This document shows positions 381-9,537 of a stretch of DNA of 64,000 nucleotides, one piece after another. The notes under the pieces are model-generated. The model made no database searches and had not been told where the DNA came from. It saw nothing but the letters and a program-made list of their open reading frames with translations. The DNA lies in the NCBI RefSeq assembly GCF_030408795.1, contig NZ_CP047211.1, positions 744,001 to 808,000 of the forward strand. Reading direction: 5' to 3'. The DNA is from Corynebacterium hansenii (lineage in GTDB: Bacteria > Actinomycetota > Actinomycetes > Mycobacteriales > Mycobacteriaceae). How positions within the stretch are numbered: position 1 is the stretch's first letter; each line of letters begins with the position of its first letter. The translations under genes and the position numbers were made by a program.

Positions 381-655
381 GGCAGGACCTCCAACGCCTC
401 GGTGGCGACGGTGATGGCGGCGTCGAGCATGTCGGGCCGGTACCCCGACCAGTGGTCGAGACCATCCGGCAGATCGACGGTGACGACCGGCAGCATCGAA
501 TACCCGAGCTGCTCGACGGCGAAGCGGCCCACCGCGTCGCGGGTGACGTCGACGAGCTTGAAATCCACGCCGGCGCGGCGGAGATGCCGCTTCGTAGCGT
601 GGCACTGCATGCACGACGGGGCGGTGTAGACGGTGATCATCCGGTCGGGGGTCAC
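377..655 (-). CDS. Glutaredoxin/NrdH-like redoxin of the prophage
   Basis: About 92 residues with a thioredoxin-fold layout: strand ITVYTAPSC, the redox motif C-M-Q-C, the family helix ATKRHLRRAG, strand VDFKLVDVT, and the cis-Pro region LPVVTVD. NrdH redoxins give electrons to class Ib ribonucleotide reductase or reduce other thiols. Here it would be a phage-borne dithiol protein. The GTG start at 655 overlaps the stop of the MuF gene (AAGTGACC) with a G-rich stretch 6 bases upstream. The ATG at 640 is the alternative and matches the usual NrdH N-terminus (MITVYT). No reductase subunit is nearby in the window. Confidence 0.8.
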   Translation of the reverse strand: MTPDRMITVYTAPSCMQCHATKRHLRRAGVDFKLVDVTRDAVGRFAVEQLGYSMLPVVTVDLPDGLDHWSGYRPDMLDAAITVATEALEVLP

Positions 656-3600
656 TTGATGCCCCCGGCGAGCAGGGAGGCGGCCATGCGGCGCGCTTCG
701 ACGGTGCGGGCCTCGGTGGCCTCCGCGGTGGCGCGGCGCTCCTCGTAGCGGCGCAGCCCTTCGGCGACGGCGTCGGCGAGGACGTCCTCGCGGGTGCGGC
801 GCGGCATGACGGCGGCGGCGACCAGCGACATCTCCGCCCCTTCGGCGGCCGCGTAGGCGCGGGGCACCGGGAAGCCCGGGGTGTTGACCGACAGGGCGGC
901 GACGAGCTCCAGGTTGCCGCCCACCGACCGCCAATCCCCCGACAGGGGCGCGGACGCTCCGGCGCGGACGGTGGCGGTGTCGGCGTCGGGGTTGATGATC
1001 CCGGCGACCCAGATGCCGTGGGCGTCCTCCCCGGCGCGGACGTAGGCCCAGCAGGTGCCGGTCTGGTCGTAGTGCTCGGTGGCGGCGTGCGCCCCGTCGC
1101 GGGGCCCGGCGTGGCCGCAGCCGACGGTCAGCCGGCCCACGGAGATGGGGCCTTCGTCGGTGGCGACGGTGGAGACGTGGAATAGGGCGTAGTCCGTCTT
1201 CGAGTGCGGCGGGGTCACCCCGCGGCCGATGCCGACGTGCTCGGTGCCCCACAAGGCGAGGTGACCGAACACGCGGCCGTCGTCGGTGACGGTCAGGGCC
1301 GTCGGCCCGTCGAGGCCCGGGTCCGCGAACGCGGCGGAGTCCACCGCCGCGTCGACCGGGGCAAGGGCGACGGCCGACGCGACCAGCGCCGCCGTCTCCT
1401 CCTCCGCATCGTCCGGGGAGGCAACCTCGTCGCCGAGGACGATCTTCGCCTCCGCGAACGCCGGCTTGCTAACGAGGGTGGCGGCCATGATCGTCGCGGA
1501 GCGGACATGCATCGTCTCCGACCACGACGGATCCCACTCGTCGACCTCCGGGTCGACCTTCTTGCCGTCGCCGTCGACGACGGTGAAGTCGACGACCATG
1601 TCGCACATGTCCACCGACGGGCGGATGACGCCCTCGGCCAGTAACTCGCGGGCCTCGGCGGCGTCGTCGGTGTCGAACAGTTCACCGGTCGCGTGGATCG
1701 CGCCGCCCTCCACGACGGCGGTGCTGATCTTCCCGACGACCACGGCGGTGTCGTGGCCTGCGCTGGTGGCCCGCTGGAACATCAAGGGGAGCGGGAACTC
1801 CCGGAACTTGATGTCGGCGTCGGAGTCGATGACGCGTCCATCGCCGGTGGGCTTGTCGATGGGGGCGAGGACCCCCGACCAGGATGTGCGCATGGGCTGC
1901 TCCTTCATGGCTGCGGTCACGGTCTGCGGTGCATCGTCGCGGGCCCGGGTGACCCCATCAGCCGCGCGGCGCCTCACCTCGGCCTGCGGGTCCCGGCGAG
2001 TGCCGTCGGCCCGCTCCCGCTCCGTCTGCCGGTCCGACTCATCCGGCAGGGGCTCGTCAGCATCGAGGAGCAGGAGGCTGCACCGGCAATTTGCCGCCTC
2101 GTGAACAGGGAGATGCTGGTCGCCCGGGTGGTCGCACTCGTGGCCACCGATCGTGAACTTCCCGTCGAGGGGGACACGCTGACCGTCGGCCTGGAAGTGC
2201 GAATCACGGGTGCGGCGGTCGAGGGTACAATTATGAACCACCAGGCCATTGGCCTGATACCAGTGCCCAGCCGTCTCAAGGTCGTACACATGCCCAACAA
2301 ACGAGTACCGCTCGATGTCGACAAGATCGTCCGCCTCTACGAGTCCGGACACTCCCTCAAGGAGGTCGCCGCCGCCGTCGGATCGAACTACAGCACCGTC
2401 AGCCGCCGACTCGCCGAACGCGGCGTCCGCACCCGAACGGCGGGTGAGGGGACGCGCCTTAGGTTCGATCGCGACCCCGCCGCCGCCGAGCAAGCCCGCG
2501 CCGCCCAGAAGCTCGGAGTCGCGGCCCGGCGACGATCCGACATAGACACTGCGGCCGTCATCGCTGAGTACACCTCCGGAGACTCCCTCAACACTGTCGG
2601 CGATCGCCACGGCACCAGCCACGACGTGATCCGCCGTATTCTCCGGGAAGCCGGGGTTCCCATCCGTGGTCAATCCGCCGCTGGAATCATCCGCGCCAGC
2701 CGAGAAGACCCCGCGGTGAAGTCCGAGAAGTACCGCCGAATCGGAGAAAAGGCCCGCGGTCGACCGATGCCGCCCGGCACCCACCAAAGGTCCGCTCGCA
2801 CGAAGCACGAGCGCATGAGCCAGCGCGTCGGCCGAGGTGAGATGGAGGTCGCGGGAGCGCTCCGCTACTACGGCTTCGAGGTTGACCGACAGGTCGCGGT
2901 CGGCAACTACAACCTCGACATCGTGTGCCTTGGCGTCGACGTTGAGATCCACACCGCTGCGCACGGTCCTCACCTTGGCGTCGGACGCATTCATCGCCGC
3001 ATCGACGACCTGACCAATGCCGGGTGGCGAGTCCTGTACGTCTGGTGCCCCAGGGGTCTGAGCATGGACGACCTGGAAGAGGTTGTCCGACAAGTCAAGA
3101 TCGCCAGCGGCGACCCAGCCACGCCCGGTCAATACCGGATGCTCAGGTGTGAGGGAGAGTTCCCGCCCGCTCGCGGTGGTGATGCGTACAAGGGTGCCTA
3201 CGTACTCTCGACGGGCAGCATGCCGAACGTCGATGGCACCGACAACCGTGTCCGGAGCAACGCATAGCCACGCCTTGTGCATTTCCTCCCCGGTGAGGTG
3301 CTGCTCCATCCGCCCGGCCTCAAGGTCGGCGGCGTTGATCAGGGAGTTCGTTTCGGTGCGGGCGATGGTCTGCGCGCGGCGCCGCCATCGCTCGTACTGG
3401 GCGGGGTCGTCGAGGTCGAGGAACTCCCGCACCAGGGCTGCCCGGTCCTGCGGGTTCATGCCGTCCTTCACGGCCTTCGCCAGGGCCTGCACCATCTCCC
3501 GGTACACCGACTCCGGCATCCCCGACACCCGATTGACCGCGGCACGGGCGTAATCGTCGATGAAGTCGACCCACGTCGCCGTGTCGATGATCACGGCCAT

Positions 3601-3987
3601 CTGCCCGGTGGCGACGCCGGCGCGGGTCATGGCGACCATCGCTTCGTCGAGGGCGTCGGCGAGCTCGTCGCGCAGCCCGGCGGCGCGGGGCAGGGCAGCA
3701 ACGTCGACGCCCCTCGCGTCGGTCATTGCTGCGACGCGGGCGGCGATGAGCCCGATCTGCGTCGGCGTCATTTCCTGGGCGAGGACGAGGTCCCACGCGG
3801 CGGCTGCGGCGAGGATCGCCTCGATGTTCGGCATCACCTCCTCGTCGTCGGCGGCGGCGAGAAGCGCCCGGAAGACGGAGGGGCGGACATGCTCGTCGAG
3901 CCATGTGCGCATCGCTCGCATCACCGGCTCTTCGAGGATGGCGGCCCAGTCGTCGAACGGGTCCGGCAGGAACACGGCCATGGTCAT
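652..3987 (-). CDS. MuF head-morphogenesis / capsid-maturation-protease fusion, interrupted by an intein
   Basis: A precursor of 1111 residues, about 766 after removal of the intein at residues 242-586. Residues 1 to about 241 plus 587 to about 640 form a MuF-like (portal-associated head morphogenesis) domain, ending in the Cys/His-rich H-E-A-A-N-C-R-C segment. Residues from about 690 to 860 resemble phage capsid maturation proteases (GVLAPIDKPTGDGR ... LVSKPAFAEAKI). A third beta-rich domain (about 890-1060) carries conserved Cys/His (VGCGHAG, TGTCWAY) and resembles the C-terminal part of actinophage protease fusions. The gene overlaps the portal stop (ATGA). No scaffold or capsid gene is visible because the region continues left of the window. 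The domain calls are from sequence pattern only. Confidence 0.85.
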   Translation of the reverse strand: MTMAVFLPDPFDDWAAILEEPVMRAMRTWLDEHVRPSVFRALLAAADDEEVMPNIEAILAAAAAWDLVLAQEMTPTQIGLIAARVAAMTDARGVDVAALPRAAGLRDELADALDEAMVAMTRAGVATGQMAVIIDTATWVDFIDDYARAAVNRVSGMPESVYREMVQALAKAVKDGMNPQDRAALVREFLDLDDPAQYERWRRRAQTIARTETNSLINAADLEAGRMEQHLTGEEMHKAWLCVAPDTVVGAIDVRHAARREYVGTLVRITTASGRELSLTPEHPVLTGRGWVAAGDLDLSDNLFQVVHAQTPGAPDVQDSPPGIGQVVDAAMNASDAKVRTVRSGVDLNVDAKAHDVEVVVADRDLSVNLEAVVAERSRDLHLTSADALAHALVLRASGPLVGAGRHRSTAGLFSDSAVLLGLHRGVFSAGADDSSGGLTTDGNPGFPENTADHVVAGAVAIADSVEGVSGGVLSDDGRSVYVGSSPGRDSELLGGAGLLGGGGVAIEPKARPLTRRSGADAAFGESAADGAVVRSDGGGDLLEGVSGLVEADDLVDIERYSFVGHVYDLETAGHWYQANGLVVHNCTLDRRTRDSHFQADGQRVPLDGKFTIGGHECDHPGDQHLPVHEAANCRCSLLLLDADEPLPDESDRQTERERADGTRRDPQAEVRRRAADGVTRARDDAPQTVTAAMKEQPMRTSWSGVLAPIDKPTGDGRVIDSDADIKFREFPLPLMFQRATSAGHDTAVVVGKISTAVVEGGAIHATGELFDTDDAAEARELLAEGVIRPSVDMCDMVVDFTVVDGDGKKVDPEVDEWDPSWSETMHVRSATIMAATLVSKPAFAEAKIVLGDEVASPDDAEEETAALVASAVALAPVDAAVDSAAFADPGLDGPTALTVTDDGRVFGHLALWGTEHVGIGRGVTPPHSKTDYALFHVSTVATDEGPISVGRLTVGCGHAGPRDGAHAATEHYDQTGTCWAYVRAGEDAHGIWVAGIINPDADTATVRAGASAPLSGDWRSVGGNLELVAALSVNTPGFPVPRAYAAAEGAEMSLVAAAVMPRRTREDVLADAVAEGLRRYEERRATAEATEARTVEARRMAASLLAGGIK
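2226..2231 (+). promoter_or_regulatory. Possible -10 box (TACAAT) for the antisense endonuclease gene
   Basis: TACAAT lies about 60 bases before the ATG at 2290, facing the endonuclease gene. It falls exactly on the codons for the intein's last Asn and the +1 Cys read on the other strand (AAT TGT). No good -35 element is seen at 17-18 bases. Because the splice junction alone forces most of these bases, the match may be accidental. Confidence 0.35.
2230..3264 (-). other. Class 1 intein in the MuF/protease gene (345 aa)
   Basis: Block A starts at Cys1 (CVAPDTVV). Block B has the T-x-x-H motif at intein residues 39-42 (LTPEHPVLTGRGW). Blocks F and G are VYDLETAGHW and NGLVVHN, with terminal His344-Asn345 and Cys as the +1 extein residue. 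All residues needed for standard class 1 splicing are present. Residues about 70-312 carry no LAGLIDADG, HNH or other endonuclease motif. They are low in complexity (Gly/Ala/Asp/Ser/Val), as expected where the real gene is on the other strand. The insertion site lies in the MuF domain between Trp-Leu and Cys-Thr-Leu-Asp-Arg. Confidence 0.92.
2290..3267 (+). CDS. Putative homing endonuclease encoded antisense within the MuF intein (HTH-HTH-Vsr/EDxHD-like nuclease)
   Basis: A 325-residue protein. Residues about 10-47 and 85-127 are two helix-turn-helix units of similar layout (IVRLYESGHSLKEVAAAVG and VIAEYTSGDSLNTVGDRHG). Residues 182-255 look like the compact PD-(D/E)XK fold of Vsr/EDxHD nucleases: Glu184/Glu186, strand YNLD with Asp210, strand V-E-I-H with Glu219 and His221, then HRRIDDLTNAGWRVLYVW. 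Codon use is strongly GC3-biased like real genes here, and the N- and C-terminal parts are not low complexity. The ATG at 2290 has AAGG 8 bases upstream; ATG 2233 is in frame but probably upstream of transcription start. The gene ends at TAG 3265-3267, one codon outside the intein. Function as a homing enzyme is inference from location and fold. Confidence 0.82.
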   Translation: MPNKRVPLDVDKIVRLYESGHSLKEVAAAVGSNYSTVSRRLAERGVRTRTAGEGTRLRFDRDPAAAEQARAAQKLGVAARRRSDIDTAAVIAEYTSGDSLNTVGDRHGTSHDVIRRILREAGVPIRGQSAAGIIRASREDPAVKSEKYRRIGEKARGRPMPPGTHQRSARTKHERMSQRVGRGEMEVAGALRYYGFEVDRQVAVGNYNLDIVCLGVDVEIHTAAHGPHLGVGRIHRRIDDLTNAGWRVLYVWCPRGLSMDDLEEVVRQVKIASGDPATPGQYRMLRCEGEFPPARGGDAYKGAYVLSTGSMPNVDGTDNRVRSNA

Positions 3988-6066: not shown

Positions 6067-6270
6067 ATGACTTCTGCCACACACCTCATGATCATCCTCG
6101 CTACCACCCTGATCAGCGTATTTGCGCTCGCCGCCTACGCCGCCGCCCACTACGTCCTGGTCGTCGACGATCGCACGGAGCGGCACGCCTACCGGCTGAC
6201 GCTCTCCACTGCGGTCGTATGCCTCGCCGTGCAGCTGATCGCGGACGCCGTCGCGCTCGGGGTGATCTAG
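6067..6270 (+). CDS. Small two-helix membrane protein in the late gene block
   Basis: 67 residues from ATG 6067: a first hydrophobic helix (LMIILATTLISVFALAAYAAA), a short charged loop (DDRTERHAYR) and a second helix (LTLSTAVVCLAVQLIADAVAL). It is the only plus-strand gene inside the late block and converges on the terminase gene with a 4-base overlap. No clear ribosome binding site is present. The two-helix form recalls small phage membrane proteins such as holin-like or superinfection-exclusion factors, but nothing specific identifies it. Confidence 0.55.
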   Translation: MTSATHLMIILATTLISVFALAAYAAAHYVLVVDDRTERHAYRLTLSTAVVCLAVQLIADAVALGVI

Positions 6271-9011
6271 CCGATCGGGCTGGACCAGAACCCCGAGCCG
6301 ACCCCGGGCGACGCAGCTGGGGCCGCGGCGGGCATGCCTGGGGTGGCGATCTGCGCTTCCGCCCCGACGAGCTGCATGCACCGCTCATACCCATTGACCA
6401 GCGCGTCCATGCGGTCGGGGGAATCCTGCCCGGGCAGCCACCGGGTGGCCTGCTCCTCGAGCTCCGGGTGCGTGCCGACCATCCGCAGCCGCCCGGTGGA
6501 CGCGGCCTGCCGGGTGCCGGCGGCGCGGGCGACCTTGTCGCCGCGGGCGCGCCACGGGCGGATCCGGAACGGCGGGTCGGTCTGGTCGGGCACCGGCACT
6601 CCGTCGAGCTGCCGGAGGGCGGCCAGTGGGTCGGCGGGCCGGTCCTCCAGTCGGGCGTAGGCGATCGCCGCGGCGGCGAGGTCACCGGCATGGTCGCGGA
6701 GCAGGCGGGCTTCGTCGCGCACCCGCCGCCACGCCGCGTCGAGGACCCGCTCGTAGGTGGGGCCGGTGGTGAACGCCTCGAACAGCACTTCTCCCGCTCC
6801 GGTGCCCAGGGCCAGTAGGACGGCGGTGCGTGCCCACTCGTCGGATTGCATGCGGCCGGAGTGGTCGTCGGTGACCCAGGCGCGGCCGTCGGCGGTGACG
6901 GTCAGGCCGATGATGCCGGCTTCGTCGGCTTTGCCGGTTTCGGCGGGGTCGACGGAGACGATGCGGGCCGCTGGGGTGCCGCCGACGGTGGGGGCGCGGT
7001 GGCGGGCGAACCACTCGGTGGCGAACAGGCCGCCGCCGGCGGGGGTCGGCTGGCCGAGGTACAGGGCCGACCAGACGCGCTCGCCGACATCCGCGCGGAT
7101 GCGGTCGAAGTCCTCCGCGGTGCGGCCGCGGGCGGAGATCATCGCCTCCCCGGGCTCGCGGCCCAGGGCGTCGGGCACTCCGGGTGTGGCGACGGCGGGG
7201 ATGTTCACCACCCGCCACGACGACCTGCCGGCCTGCTTGTCCTGGGCGAGGACATGTCCGACGAGGTCCTTCTCGTGCCAGCGGGTCATGATGATGACGA
7301 CGGGGGCTCCGGGGGCGAGGCGGGTCTGGGCGACGGATTCCCACCAGTCGATGACCTTCCGGCGTTCGACAACCGAGTCGGCTTCGGCCATGCCTTTGAG
7401 GGGGTCATCGACGAGGAGGACGTCGGCGGGGCGGCCCGTCAGCGAGCCGCCGACGCCGACGGCGTAGAGACCGCCCTTGTGTCCGGCGAGCTGCCAGGAC
7501 CCCGCACTTGCGTTGTCGTCGGCCAGGGCCAGGCCCAGCTTGTCGACCAGTGCGGCACCGGTCAGGGGGTCTTTCGCGCCGTGGCCGTGTTCGCGGATGA
7601 TGTTGCGGACCTGGCGGGCGGTACCGCGGGCGAGGTGCTCGGCGTAGGAGGCGAGGACGACGCGGCGGTCGGGGTTTTGGACGAGGGCGCGGACGACGCC
7701 CCATACGCCGACGCGCTGCGAGTTGTGGGTCGGTACCATGGTCCGGCCCACGAGGTACAGGCCGTCGGGTGCGTCGACGGTGATGCACCGGCCGGGCCGT
7801 GGGGGGATGGGCTCGATGCCGGTGATGGGGGTGCGGCGGCGGGCGGCGCGGGCGGTGATGCGCCCCTCGTAACGGGGCAGGCGGGTCGGCACGATGCCGT
7901 CGTGGGGGCTGAATGCGACGCGCCACATCTCCCGCCGCCCGGTGATCTGCTGTCCGCGGACGCCGGTTCCGCCGTCGCTGGGGGCGATGGGGCGGTGTTC
8001 GCCGGCGCGGTAGCCGAGGGTGCGGATGAGCTCGGCGACGTCGGCGACGAGGCGGCGGGAGGTGTTGTCGAAGCACACCTGATTCCCCGTGGCGGGCACG
8101 TGCCCGTCGGAGTCGATGAGGCCCGCCAGCAGGGCCCGCCGCTGCGCCTCCGACGCCCGCAGGTACACGGAGGGGATGTGCCTGTTGCCCAGCAGGCCCA
8201 GGGCCCGCAGTGCGGTGAGGAAGCCGCCGCCGAGGTAGTCCTGCACGACGCCGGTGTCCTTGTGCGTCCAGGTGGACGTGACGGGGTAGGCGTACTGGTA
8301 GTCGTCGGCGGCGTCGTGGTGGATGTAGGCGCCGGATGCGCGGCCGTCGCCGAGCCACAGCCCCAGGGTGTACGGGTCAATGGGGAGGTTGGCGTCGGGG
8401 AGGGTGAAGGCCTCGCGGTGCGGCAGGTGGCTCAGGTACTTGCATCCCCGACGGCCCGCCGGGCCGGTGGTGATGGCGTGGTCCGCGAGCCATTGGGTTT
8501 CGACGGTGCGGGGGGCGGGGCAGCCGTTGCGGTGGATGGTCCATTCATGGCGGGGGTGCACATCGATGTGGTCGTTGCCGTCGATGTGGACGCGCATGGT
8601 GGCCATCGCTTCGGGGTGGATGGCGGTGACGGTGACGGGGCGGCCGGAGGGGTGCATCACCTGGTCGCCGGGGCGGAGCTCGCCGTGCGTGGTCCAGCCG
8701 GTGGGCGTGGGCACGGGGGTGTCGTGGGCGACTAGCTTCCCCTCCTGTGGGGGCATGGAGATGGCGAGGCGGGCGTCGCGGGTCGACAGGGCCCATTCGA
8801 GGGCCTGGTCGATTGCTTCGAGGGCGGGGGTCTGCACCGTCGATGGTTCGATGGCTTGGGCGAGGGTGCCGGCGGTGGGGTGGGTGCGGGCGGTGTGGGC
8901 GCGGGTGGTTTCGCGGTCGAGGCGGTGGAGGAGGGCGGCGCGTTGGGTGGGGGACCATCCGGCGGTTTCGGCGAGGATGGTGCGGCGGAGCAGGTCGGCG
9001 TGGTCGGTCAT
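6267..9011 (-). CDS. Terminase large subunit, interrupted by an intein
   Basis: A 914-residue precursor, about 576 after splicing. The N-terminal ATPase has the P-loop M-P-P-Q-E-G-K-S, rebuilt only when the intein between Lys92 and Ser431 is removed. Walker B is ADVLLVDDPLKG, followed by an arginine-rich coupling region. The C-terminal RNase H-like nuclease shows strand IVSVDPAE with catalytic Asp and the later D-R-M-D-A-L. Terminase pumps DNA into the prohead and cuts it. The start at MTDHADLL is chosen because sequence further upstream is arginine-rich shadow of neighbouring genes. The minus-strand neighbours are small phage genes. Confidence 0.93.
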   Translation of the reverse strand: MTDHADLLRRTILAETAGWSPTQRAALLHRLDRETTRAHTARTHPTAGTLAQAIEPSTVQTPALEAIDQALEWALSTRDARLAISMPPQEGKLVAHDTPVPTPTGWTTHGELRPGDQVMHPSGRPVTVTAIHPEAMATMRVHIDGNDHIDVHPRHEWTIHRNGCPAPRTVETQWLADHAITTGPAGRRGCKYLSHLPHREAFTLPDANLPIDPYTLGLWLGDGRASGAYIHHDAADDYQYAYPVTSTWTHKDTGVVQDYLGGGFLTALRALGLLGNRHIPSVYLRASEAQRRALLAGLIDSDGHVPATGNQVCFDNTSRRLVADVAELIRTLGYRAGEHRPIAPSDGGTGVRGQQITGRREMWRVAFSPHDGIVPTRLPRYEGRITARAARRRTPITGIEPIPPRPGRCITVDAPDGLYLVGRTMVPTHNSQRVGVWGVVRALVQNPDRRVVLASYAEHLARGTARQVRNIIREHGHGAKDPLTGAALVDKLGLALADDNASAGSWQLAGHKGGLYAVGVGGSLTGRPADVLLVDDPLKGMAEADSVVERRKVIDWWESVAQTRLAPGAPVVIIMTRWHEKDLVGHVLAQDKQAGRSSWRVVNIPAVATPGVPDALGREPGEAMISARGRTAEDFDRIRADVGERVWSALYLGQPTPAGGGLFATEWFARHRAPTVGGTPAARIVSVDPAETGKADEAGIIGLTVTADGRAWVTDDHSGRMQSDEWARTAVLLALGTGAGEVLFEAFTTGPTYERVLDAAWRRVRDEARLLRDHAGDLAAAAIAYARLEDRPADPLAALRQLDGVPVPDQTDPPFRIRPWRARGDKVARAAGTRQAASTGRLRMVGTHPELEEQATRWLPGQDSPDRMDALVNGYERCMQLVGAEAQIATPGMPAAAPAASPGVGSGFWSSPIG
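7722..8735 (-). other. Class 3 intein with LAGLIDADG endonuclease in the terminase P-loop (338 aa)
   Basis: The intein starts with Leu-Val-Ala-His-Asp-Thr-Pro, so the usual N-terminal Cys/Ser nucleophile is absent. It carries the class 3 W-C-T triad: Trp65 in H-E-W (block B), Cys317 in R-C-I-T-V-D (block F) and Thr336 in V-P-T-H-N (block G). It ends His337-Asn338, with Ser as +1 residue. Two endonuclease motifs are visible: YTLGLWLGDG (residues 122-131) and LLAGLIDSDG (202-211), so it should be a mobile, self-splicing element. Insertion between Gly-Lys and Ser of Walker A is a classic intein site. Confidence 0.93.
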
Positions 9012-9043
9012 GCCCGTGATGGTCGTGGGCAGTGGTGACCGGG

Positions 9044-9313
9044 TTAGCGGGGTGCGAGGGCGGCCCAGGTGTAGACGGCGACGATGGTGGAGATCGCGTG
9101 GACGAGGACGACGTCGCGGTGCGTTTCGGGGGCCTGGGAGATCGCGTCGATGAAGAAGTCGACCGCCAGGCCGGTCGACGGGCCGGGCGTGGTGTCGGGG
9201 GCGGCGGGTGGCCAGTGCCCGGCTTCCACGTCGGGGTCCAGGCCCAGGCGGGTCATGGCCGCATAGAACTCGGCCCAGGCGCGGGTGTCTTCCGGGGTCA
9301 TGTGGTTCTCCAT
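9044..9313 (-). CDS. Small phage protein of unknown function
   Basis: 89 residues from ATG 9313 (MENHMTPEDTRAWAEFYAAM). An acidic, aromatic helical N-terminus is followed by a Pro-rich turn and a helical part (VDFFIDAISQA, VVLVHAISTIVAVYTWAAL) ending in a hydrophobic helix. Its start lies inside the 3' end of the next gene upstream (overlap 16 bases), typical of this operon. It precedes terminase by 32 bases. I do not recognise the family. Confidence 0.65.
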   Translation of the reverse strand: MENHMTPEDTRAWAEFYAAMTRLGLDPDVEAGHWPPAAPDTTPGPSTGLAVDFFIDAISQAPETHRDVVLVHAISTIVAVYTWAALAPR

Positions 9314-9537
9314 GTGTGTCGTCGGTCCTCGTGGTGCCGGTGGGGTCCGGCATGGCCTGGGGGTTCGCCGCATTGCAGCCAGTCGCCCTGCCATTCGTCG
9401 CCGTCCGGGAAGTGCATTTCAGCGCAGTGGTCGCGCACCCATTGGTCGCCCCATTCGGACAAGCGCTCAAACCCCCGCAGCGCTGCGACCATGTTTCGGC
9501 GGTGGGCCATGCGGTCGCGCCCGATTACGTCACCCAC
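9298..9537 (-). CDS. Small phage protein with Cys/His-rich C-terminus
   Basis: 79 residues starting at a GTG 20 bases after the upstream stop. The C-terminal half holds Cys/His pairs (RDHCAEMHF, LQCGEPPGHAGPHRHH). The C-G-x-P-x-G-H-x-G-P-H-R pattern recurs in small actinophage proteins and may bind a metal. A later in-frame ATG (MAHRRNM) is a possible start. Function unknown. Confidence 0.6.
   Translation of the reverse strand: MGDVIGRDRMAHRRNMVAALRGFERLSEWGDQWVRDHCAEMHFPDGDEWQGDWLQCGEPPGHAGPHRHHEDRRHTWRTT

Follow-up and report, generated by a model that had tools for sequence, protein, structure and literature searches.

A prophage intein of Corynebacterium hansenii with a putative homing endonuclease gene on its opposite strand

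The DNA analyzed here, called the window, is a stretch of 64,000 nucleotides of Corynebacterium hansenii (contig NZ_CP047211.1, positions 744,001 to 808,000), and from its gene content we read the region as a prophage. A MuF-like capsid gene lies on its minus strand (652..3987, stop included), is single-copy in the 3.1-Mb genome, and forms one uninterrupted frame of 1111 residues that encloses an intein of 345 residues (2230..3264). With the intein borders placed in this way, the N-extein (3265..3987) ends in HKAWL, and the C-extein (652..2229, stop included) starts with CTLDRRTRDSH and carries the MuF motif (Pfam Phage_Mu_F, E=6.4e-7). On the plus strand, an open reading frame (ORF) of 325 residues (2290..3267, stop included) encodes a putative endonuclease antisense to the intein; only its stop codon extends beyond the intein.

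All marks of a class 1 intein were found on the minus strand: Cys1, the TxxH of block B (TPEH), the VYDL of block F (in GHVYDL), a C-terminal Asn345 in VVHN, and a Cys as the +1 residue. The Pfam family Intein_splicing matched above its cut-off (E=6.6e-10). Hidden Markov models (HMMs) of the splicing blocks matched the N-terminal part (3043..3264, with TPEH inside; E=6e-30) and the C-terminal part (2230..2364, GHVYDL to VVHN; E=1e-22), but the window was among the 16 sequences from which they were built. The structural model of the intein had a mean predicted local distance difference test score (pLDDT) of 55.4 and was confident only at residues 1 to about 65 and 311-345 (pLDDT 82-96 for residues 1-60 and 85-96 for 311-345), with pLDDT below 50 at residues 104-113, 123-140 and 156-307. 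In a Foldseek search with both ends of the model, the best matches were inteins, including Mtu RecA and Ssp DnaB (E 4e-3 to 1e-2). The model thus predicts a HINT fold for the splicing domain, in line with the Pfam match.

The original prediction had described such a class 1 intein from the letters alone and had claimed that its own frame lacks an endonuclease, and both statements were borne out. Pfam, PHROGs and NCBIfam gave no endonuclease family for the own frame of the intein (P0001) at E up to 1. A conventional intein with an in-frame endonuclease domain was therefore ruled out, the nuclease being on the opposite strand. In a 'fractured gene', the host gene and the intein are broken into separate frames; a split intein of this kind was also ruled out, since both form the single 1111-residue frame.

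The plus-strand protein contains the two helix-turn-helix (HTH) units and the Vsr-like core that had been predicted. Its ATG start codon (2290..2292) is the reverse complement of the CAT codon for the block F His. The first HTH unit (residues 9-43; 2314..2418) gave weak Pfam matches to HTH_23 and HTH_38, below cut-off, and the second (residues 82-130; 2533..2679) matched HTH_58 above the curated cut-off (E=5.1e-11). For the Vsr / I-Bth0305I-like core (residues 179-275; 2824..3114), the Pfam matches were under the curated cut-offs (MTES_1575, E=7.7e-4; DUF559, E=1.2e-3) and no Foldseek E-value was below 0.001; the fold is supported by a profile match and by a confident nuclease-like model. Across 41 sequences, Glu184 (2839..2841), Asp210 in YNLD (2917..2919) and Glu219 in VEIH (2944..2946) are invariant, and the His two residues past Glu219 is variable. 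By its core fold, the protein is likely an EDxHD / Vsr-like homing endonuclease. According to the two models, the same DNA would encode a structured protein on the plus strand, and its minus-strand reading would be mostly a disordered loop in the middle of the intein.

The same arrangement, which the original prediction proposed to look for in other MuF inteins, was found widely, in numerous phages that are only distantly related and in MuF as well as other host genes. With tblastn, the plus-strand protein matched 90 phage records and the intein 110, and in the records common to both lists the two queries matched the same place on opposite strands. Among 97 collected sequences (duplicates included; L numbers are the labels of the loci), the HMM scan placed the nuclease antisense to the intein N-block in 81, always in the same register; the remaining 16 are weak genome hits (L080-L095). 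The C-block was also present in 77 of the 81, comprising 58 distinct DNA sequences that reduce to 47 non-redundant inteins. Cys1 is present in all 47 and a +1 Cys, Ser or Thr in 46, the exception being L072, where the end was mis-set and QN-C follows just past it. The named phages infect Gordonia, Mycobacterium, Salmonella, Escherichia, Cronobacter, Edwardsiella, Pseudomonas, Pantoea, Klebsiella, Vibrio and Idiomarinaceae.

Phage_Mu_F was detected in the exteins of 27 of the 42 members scanned, and MuF is used at two or more sites, two of which are called A and B here. In L041 (451-4602, minus strand), and alike in L042, one MuF gene carries inteins at both sites with an antisense endonuclease in each. 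Other host genes are a dCMP deaminase (L072), a fusion of uracil-glycosylase and DNA polymerase A (L057), and terminase large subunits (L055 and L060; phrog_2, E=2.1e-34 and 8.1e-27), neither of the last two with a C-block match; no host family was found for the exteins of L049, L056, L064 and L070. GenBank shows no gene on the nuclease strand in 14 of the 16 fetched intein-bearing records with the Vsr-like gene or its kin, and annotated genomes may therefore hold many more; the record of Salmonella phage PK2 has hypothetical proteins annotated antisense to the intein.

The coordinates show that each minus codon is exactly the reverse complement of a plus codon; any TTA, CTA or TCA in the plus frame would therefore put a stop into the minus frame. 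Chance openness was computed with extein codon usage. For the window, P was 0.085 for an open plus frame given the minus protein and 0.23 for the reverse, neither of which is significant in such GC-rich DNA. By contrast, L069 (39% GC) by itself gave 5e-16 and 5e-10. Over 46 inteins, the summed log10 P was -119 for the plus frame given minus and -92 for the reverse, values that are exaggerated by kinship among the inteins and by the selection of open spans, several GC-rich members being individually not significant. By this calculation, the double openness exceeds chance, a conclusion that rests on the relatives and not on the window. The minus frame is open across the intein in all 47 non-redundant inteins and the plus frame is open through the nuclease core in 46, with a break there only in L044. 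Free interruption of the plus frame by stops in homologues, named at the outset as evidence that would count against the prediction, was therefore not observed.

It could be argued that the minus frame is the sole gene and that the plus ORF arose by accident, as high GC content often leaves this register free of stops. The locus has about 69% GC, the chance value of 0.085 is unremarkable, and long antisense ORFs are frequent in the window. However, the plus-strand family is related to nucleases and gives a confident nuclease-like model, the layout is retained in 15 non-redundant loci with less than 58% GC, and substitutions in the middle of the intein track the plus frame, as described below. 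The last point largely refutes the accident, which we regard as extremely unlikely.

The position of the start codon provides further evidence. A His directly precedes the V-Y/F of block F in 41 of the 47 inteins, and its codon is CAT, giving an antisense ATG, in 35 of these, whereas the His usage of the exteins predicts 12.5 (P=4e-18); the other six have CAC, which reads GTG on the opposite strand. Of the six inteins with another residue there, five obtain an ATG from a His located one or three residues before this position, and L074 has none. Upstream, a Shine-Dalgarno-like stretch with at least four matching bases occurs in 34 of 46 cases, and the sum of the matches was above all 2000 simulations that preserved the minus protein. 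In the window, the corresponding stretch is a weak AAGG (2278..2281).

To compare selection on the two strands, single-base codon differences were classed as plus-silent or minus-silent in 18 pairs, some with a common member. In the middle of the intein, plus-silent differences outnumbered minus-silent ones in 18 of 18 pairs, whereas the opposite held for the exteins in 18 of 18. The ten pairs without a common member gave 340 plus-silent versus 113 minus-silent differences in the middle and 131 versus 610 in the exteins; the window and L043 differ in the middle by 48 and 16. The alignment of the middle was made on the plus-strand protein, and this may favor the plus frame in divergent pairs, but close pairs agree on the plus-silent excess (L004/L018, 25 versus 2; L014/L016, 14 versus 2). 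With small counts, the N-block follows the minus frame in 16 of 18 pairs (tie in L010/L012, reversed in L013/L004) and the C-block in 14 of 18 (ties in L004/L020 and L007/L009, reversed in L010/L012 and L032/L033). As judged from these substitutions, the selected strand switches inside one gene: the exteins and mostly the splicing blocks are under selection as minus-strand protein and the middle as plus-strand nuclease. Selection solely on the minus frame, the second pattern that had been named as counter-evidence, was thus not found. In the minus frame, the middle looks like a disordered passenger with the main requirement to stay open.

Since this middle segment shows little protein-level constraint on the minus strand and is predicted to be disordered, one might suppose that the plus frame alone matters and that the intein no longer splices, leaving MuF broken or the insert tolerated. 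We consider this very unlikely, because Cys1 is retained in 47 of 47 inteins and a +1 Cys, Ser or Thr in 46, because conservation as minus-frame protein is seen in the exteins and in most comparisons of the splicing blocks, and because no stop interrupts the minus frame in any of the 47 inteins.

As homing elements require, sequence comparisons revealed relatives with an intein-free allele for both MuF sites. For site B, 500 phage records matched the gene of Salmonella phage LPSE1, 69 of them covering at least 80%, and many of the 60 matches listed do not contain a stretch of intein length. The match in Salmonella phage ST3 (95% identity) spans 1037 bp against 1853 bp of the query, the difference of 816 bp being the intein length. 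For site A, 151 genomes were searched and two had a match, the window's own and G265 of the same genus, which has an uninterrupted MuF gene (KVWV-CGIDTRTRD) with a C-extein that is 76% identical. Movement is also suggested by the comparison of the window with L001, where the inteins are identical over 1035 bp and identity in the flanking bins is mostly 82-97% (range 74-99%); L007 and L009 have the opposite pattern, their inteins having diverged further than their flanks. In a quick tree of 54 endonucleases, the six site-A rows form one clade with a support of 98 in the Shimodaira-Hasegawa-like approximate likelihood ratio test, and the two L041 enzymes each group with their own insertion site.

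The homing cycle predicts decay of endonucleases within intact inteins. L044 (1312-1950) fits this stage and, judging from its sequence, is a decayed copy: the antisense gene is shortened and stop-interrupted in an intact intein. In L078 (near 1468-2091, minus strand), which is outside the 47 and has no C-block detected by the HMM, a plus frame of 208 residues retains the nuclease core without the HTH part. Such cases would suit a scenario in which the endonuclease is generally a decaying remnant of past homing and the intein is old and immobile in most phages. This we find unlikely, given that the plus frame is open through the core in 46 of 47 inteins, that purifying selection on it is apparent between the close relatives L004/L018 and L014/L016, and that the intein of the window is identical to that of L001 in differing flanks. 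Co-option of the plus-strand protein, for example for regulation through its HTH units or to exclude rival phages, whose MuF genes it would cut, has a somewhat better though still low probability. Free-standing phage endonucleases can exclude rivals, and HTH units joined to a nuclease suit either use. On the other hand, the gene lies almost wholly within the intein and follows the insertion site, as a homing enzyme would. Homing and a co-opted use do not exclude each other.

A second type of nuclease was found in the Gordonia phages Nordenberg, Lennon and SchottB, where the intein at the same MuF site gave no match to the Vsr-like nuclease. Antisense to this MuF intein, in the same register, is an ORF of 196 residues (L101, 2501-3091, minus strand; likewise L102 and L103) with the sequence AYVAAFIDGEG, which we take to be a LAGLIDADG-like motif. 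It matches phrog_5046, labelled 'HNH endonuclease' (E=2.2e-15), and proteins that carry endonuclease annotations in Cyanophage PP and Caulobacter phage CcrRogue, where they are encoded by separate genes. The match to I-MsoI chain 3fd2 is weak (E=1.3e-3 for the whole sequence and 5.5 for each stretch), and Pfam gave no match up to E=0.1. Between Nordenberg and SchottB, the core of the ORF has 34 plus-silent differences and 1 minus-silent, against 3 and 46 in the N-extein. The start of this ORF is independent of block F.

Taken together, we think it very probable that the element is a two-way ('ambigrammatic') mobile intein, self-splicing as read from the minus strand and encoding a separate homing endonuclease on the plus strand. 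The first 65 or so and the last 35 or so residues of the minus-strand product would form the HINT splicing domain, joined by a long, mostly unstructured loop, and the intein would excise itself from the MuF precursor to leave the junction AWL-CTLD. Transcription and translation of the plus strand from the block F antisense ATG would produce the enzyme with two HTH units and the Vsr / I-Bth0305I-like nuclease. MuF alleles that lack the intein would be cut by this enzyme at the conserved insertion site, and the 1035-bp element would spread when the break is repaired from the copy that bears it. More generally, it is probable that phages harbor a class of such inteins, in which reversed block F supplies the start and the ribosome-binding site, that has at least two origins, involving unrelated nucleases (Vsr/EDxHD-like and LAGLIDADG-like), and propagates itself among MuF, terminase, deaminase and uracil-glycosylase/polymerase genes. 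Several results weigh against these proposals: the double openness of the window is not significant by itself, the combined per-locus test of the Shine-Dalgarno matches gave P=0.14, the AAGG of the window is no better than the minus protein predicts (p=0.76), and the LAGLIDADG-like case is one lineage of nine Gordonia records, so that the second origin rests on a single clade.

Inteins with an in-frame endonuclease, such as PI-PfuI and PI-SceI, likewise combine a splicing domain and a mobility enzyme in one element at a conserved host motif, with the endonuclease between the N and C splicing blocks. As described in PMC6801210, known endonuclease domains lie inside the intein protein, inserted at a conserved position; here, the enzyme would be a separate protein from the opposite strand. 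EDxHD / Vsr-like endonucleases such as I-Bth0305I have been described among the homing endonucleases of phages and group I introns (PMC3943268). In contrast, the genes found here are antisense in inteins and have HTH units N-terminal to the nuclease. A comparable layout is that of nuclear group I introns, e.g., Dsq.L2066, with endonuclease genes antisense to the self-splicing element (PMC9548176). The splicing part there is RNA and the gene occupies a peripheral segment where no protein frame has to be preserved, whereas here both strands must be readable as protein over hundreds of codons. Ambigrammatic narnaviruses have ORFs overlapping on opposite strands (PMC8316113), but these are RNA viruses with unrelated genes, and the reverse gene described here has a recognizable enzyme fold.

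One member of the family, Snoke, has been reported as an intein only. In the passages of PMC6776784, Snoke (Guernseyvirinae) has a large intein in a capsid morphogenesis gene, LSPA1 a nearly identical one and K1ind2 none; neither these passages nor the GenBank record contain an antisense gene for Snoke (L105), where we found the same gene. The words antisense and opposite are absent from a paper on mycobacteriophage inteins (PMC5050341). A literature search that covered mostly titles and the starts of abstracts, with many subscription papers outside its scope, gave no description of an antisense nuclease layout in inteins. The 'fractured genes' of Dassa et al. (2009) are reported to be split inteins whose halves flank a Vsr-like endonuclease gene; this ties a related nuclease type to inteins, but the intein and host frame are uninterrupted here. 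The original statement that no described family has this layout thus stands as far as we could search, but the window is not a single case: the arrangement appears, on strong sequence evidence, to be real, widespread and undescribed, and it includes a second nuclease type. If this is correct, the mobility enzyme of an intein need not be one of its domains and can instead be encoded by a gene of its own on the complementary strand. The family would also offer a large, conserved example of DNA that codes for protein on both strands, where segments of one gene are selected on different strands, and would account for phage inteins with long featureless middles.

Some further features were observed around these inteins. 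In L048 (2899-6894, minus strand), a portal-MuF fusion ORF has an extra Hint/LAGLIDADG region beside the antisense-type intein. The profile phrog_15127 ('head protein', 602 positions) matches the intein region of the window (E=6.8e-21) and the terminase inteins of L055 and L060, and hence seems to include an intein of this kind. In the same prophage as the window's MuF gene, a terminase ORF (6267-9470, minus strand) has in-frame LAGLIDADG_3 (E=1.7e-10) and Hom_end matches before Terminase_6N, and therefore probably holds a conventional intein with an in-frame endonuclease. In Edwardsiella phage MSW-3 (L011, 997-2857, plus strand), six small annotated ORFs are located on the endonuclease strand immediately upstream of the endonuclease, with which they could share a transcript.
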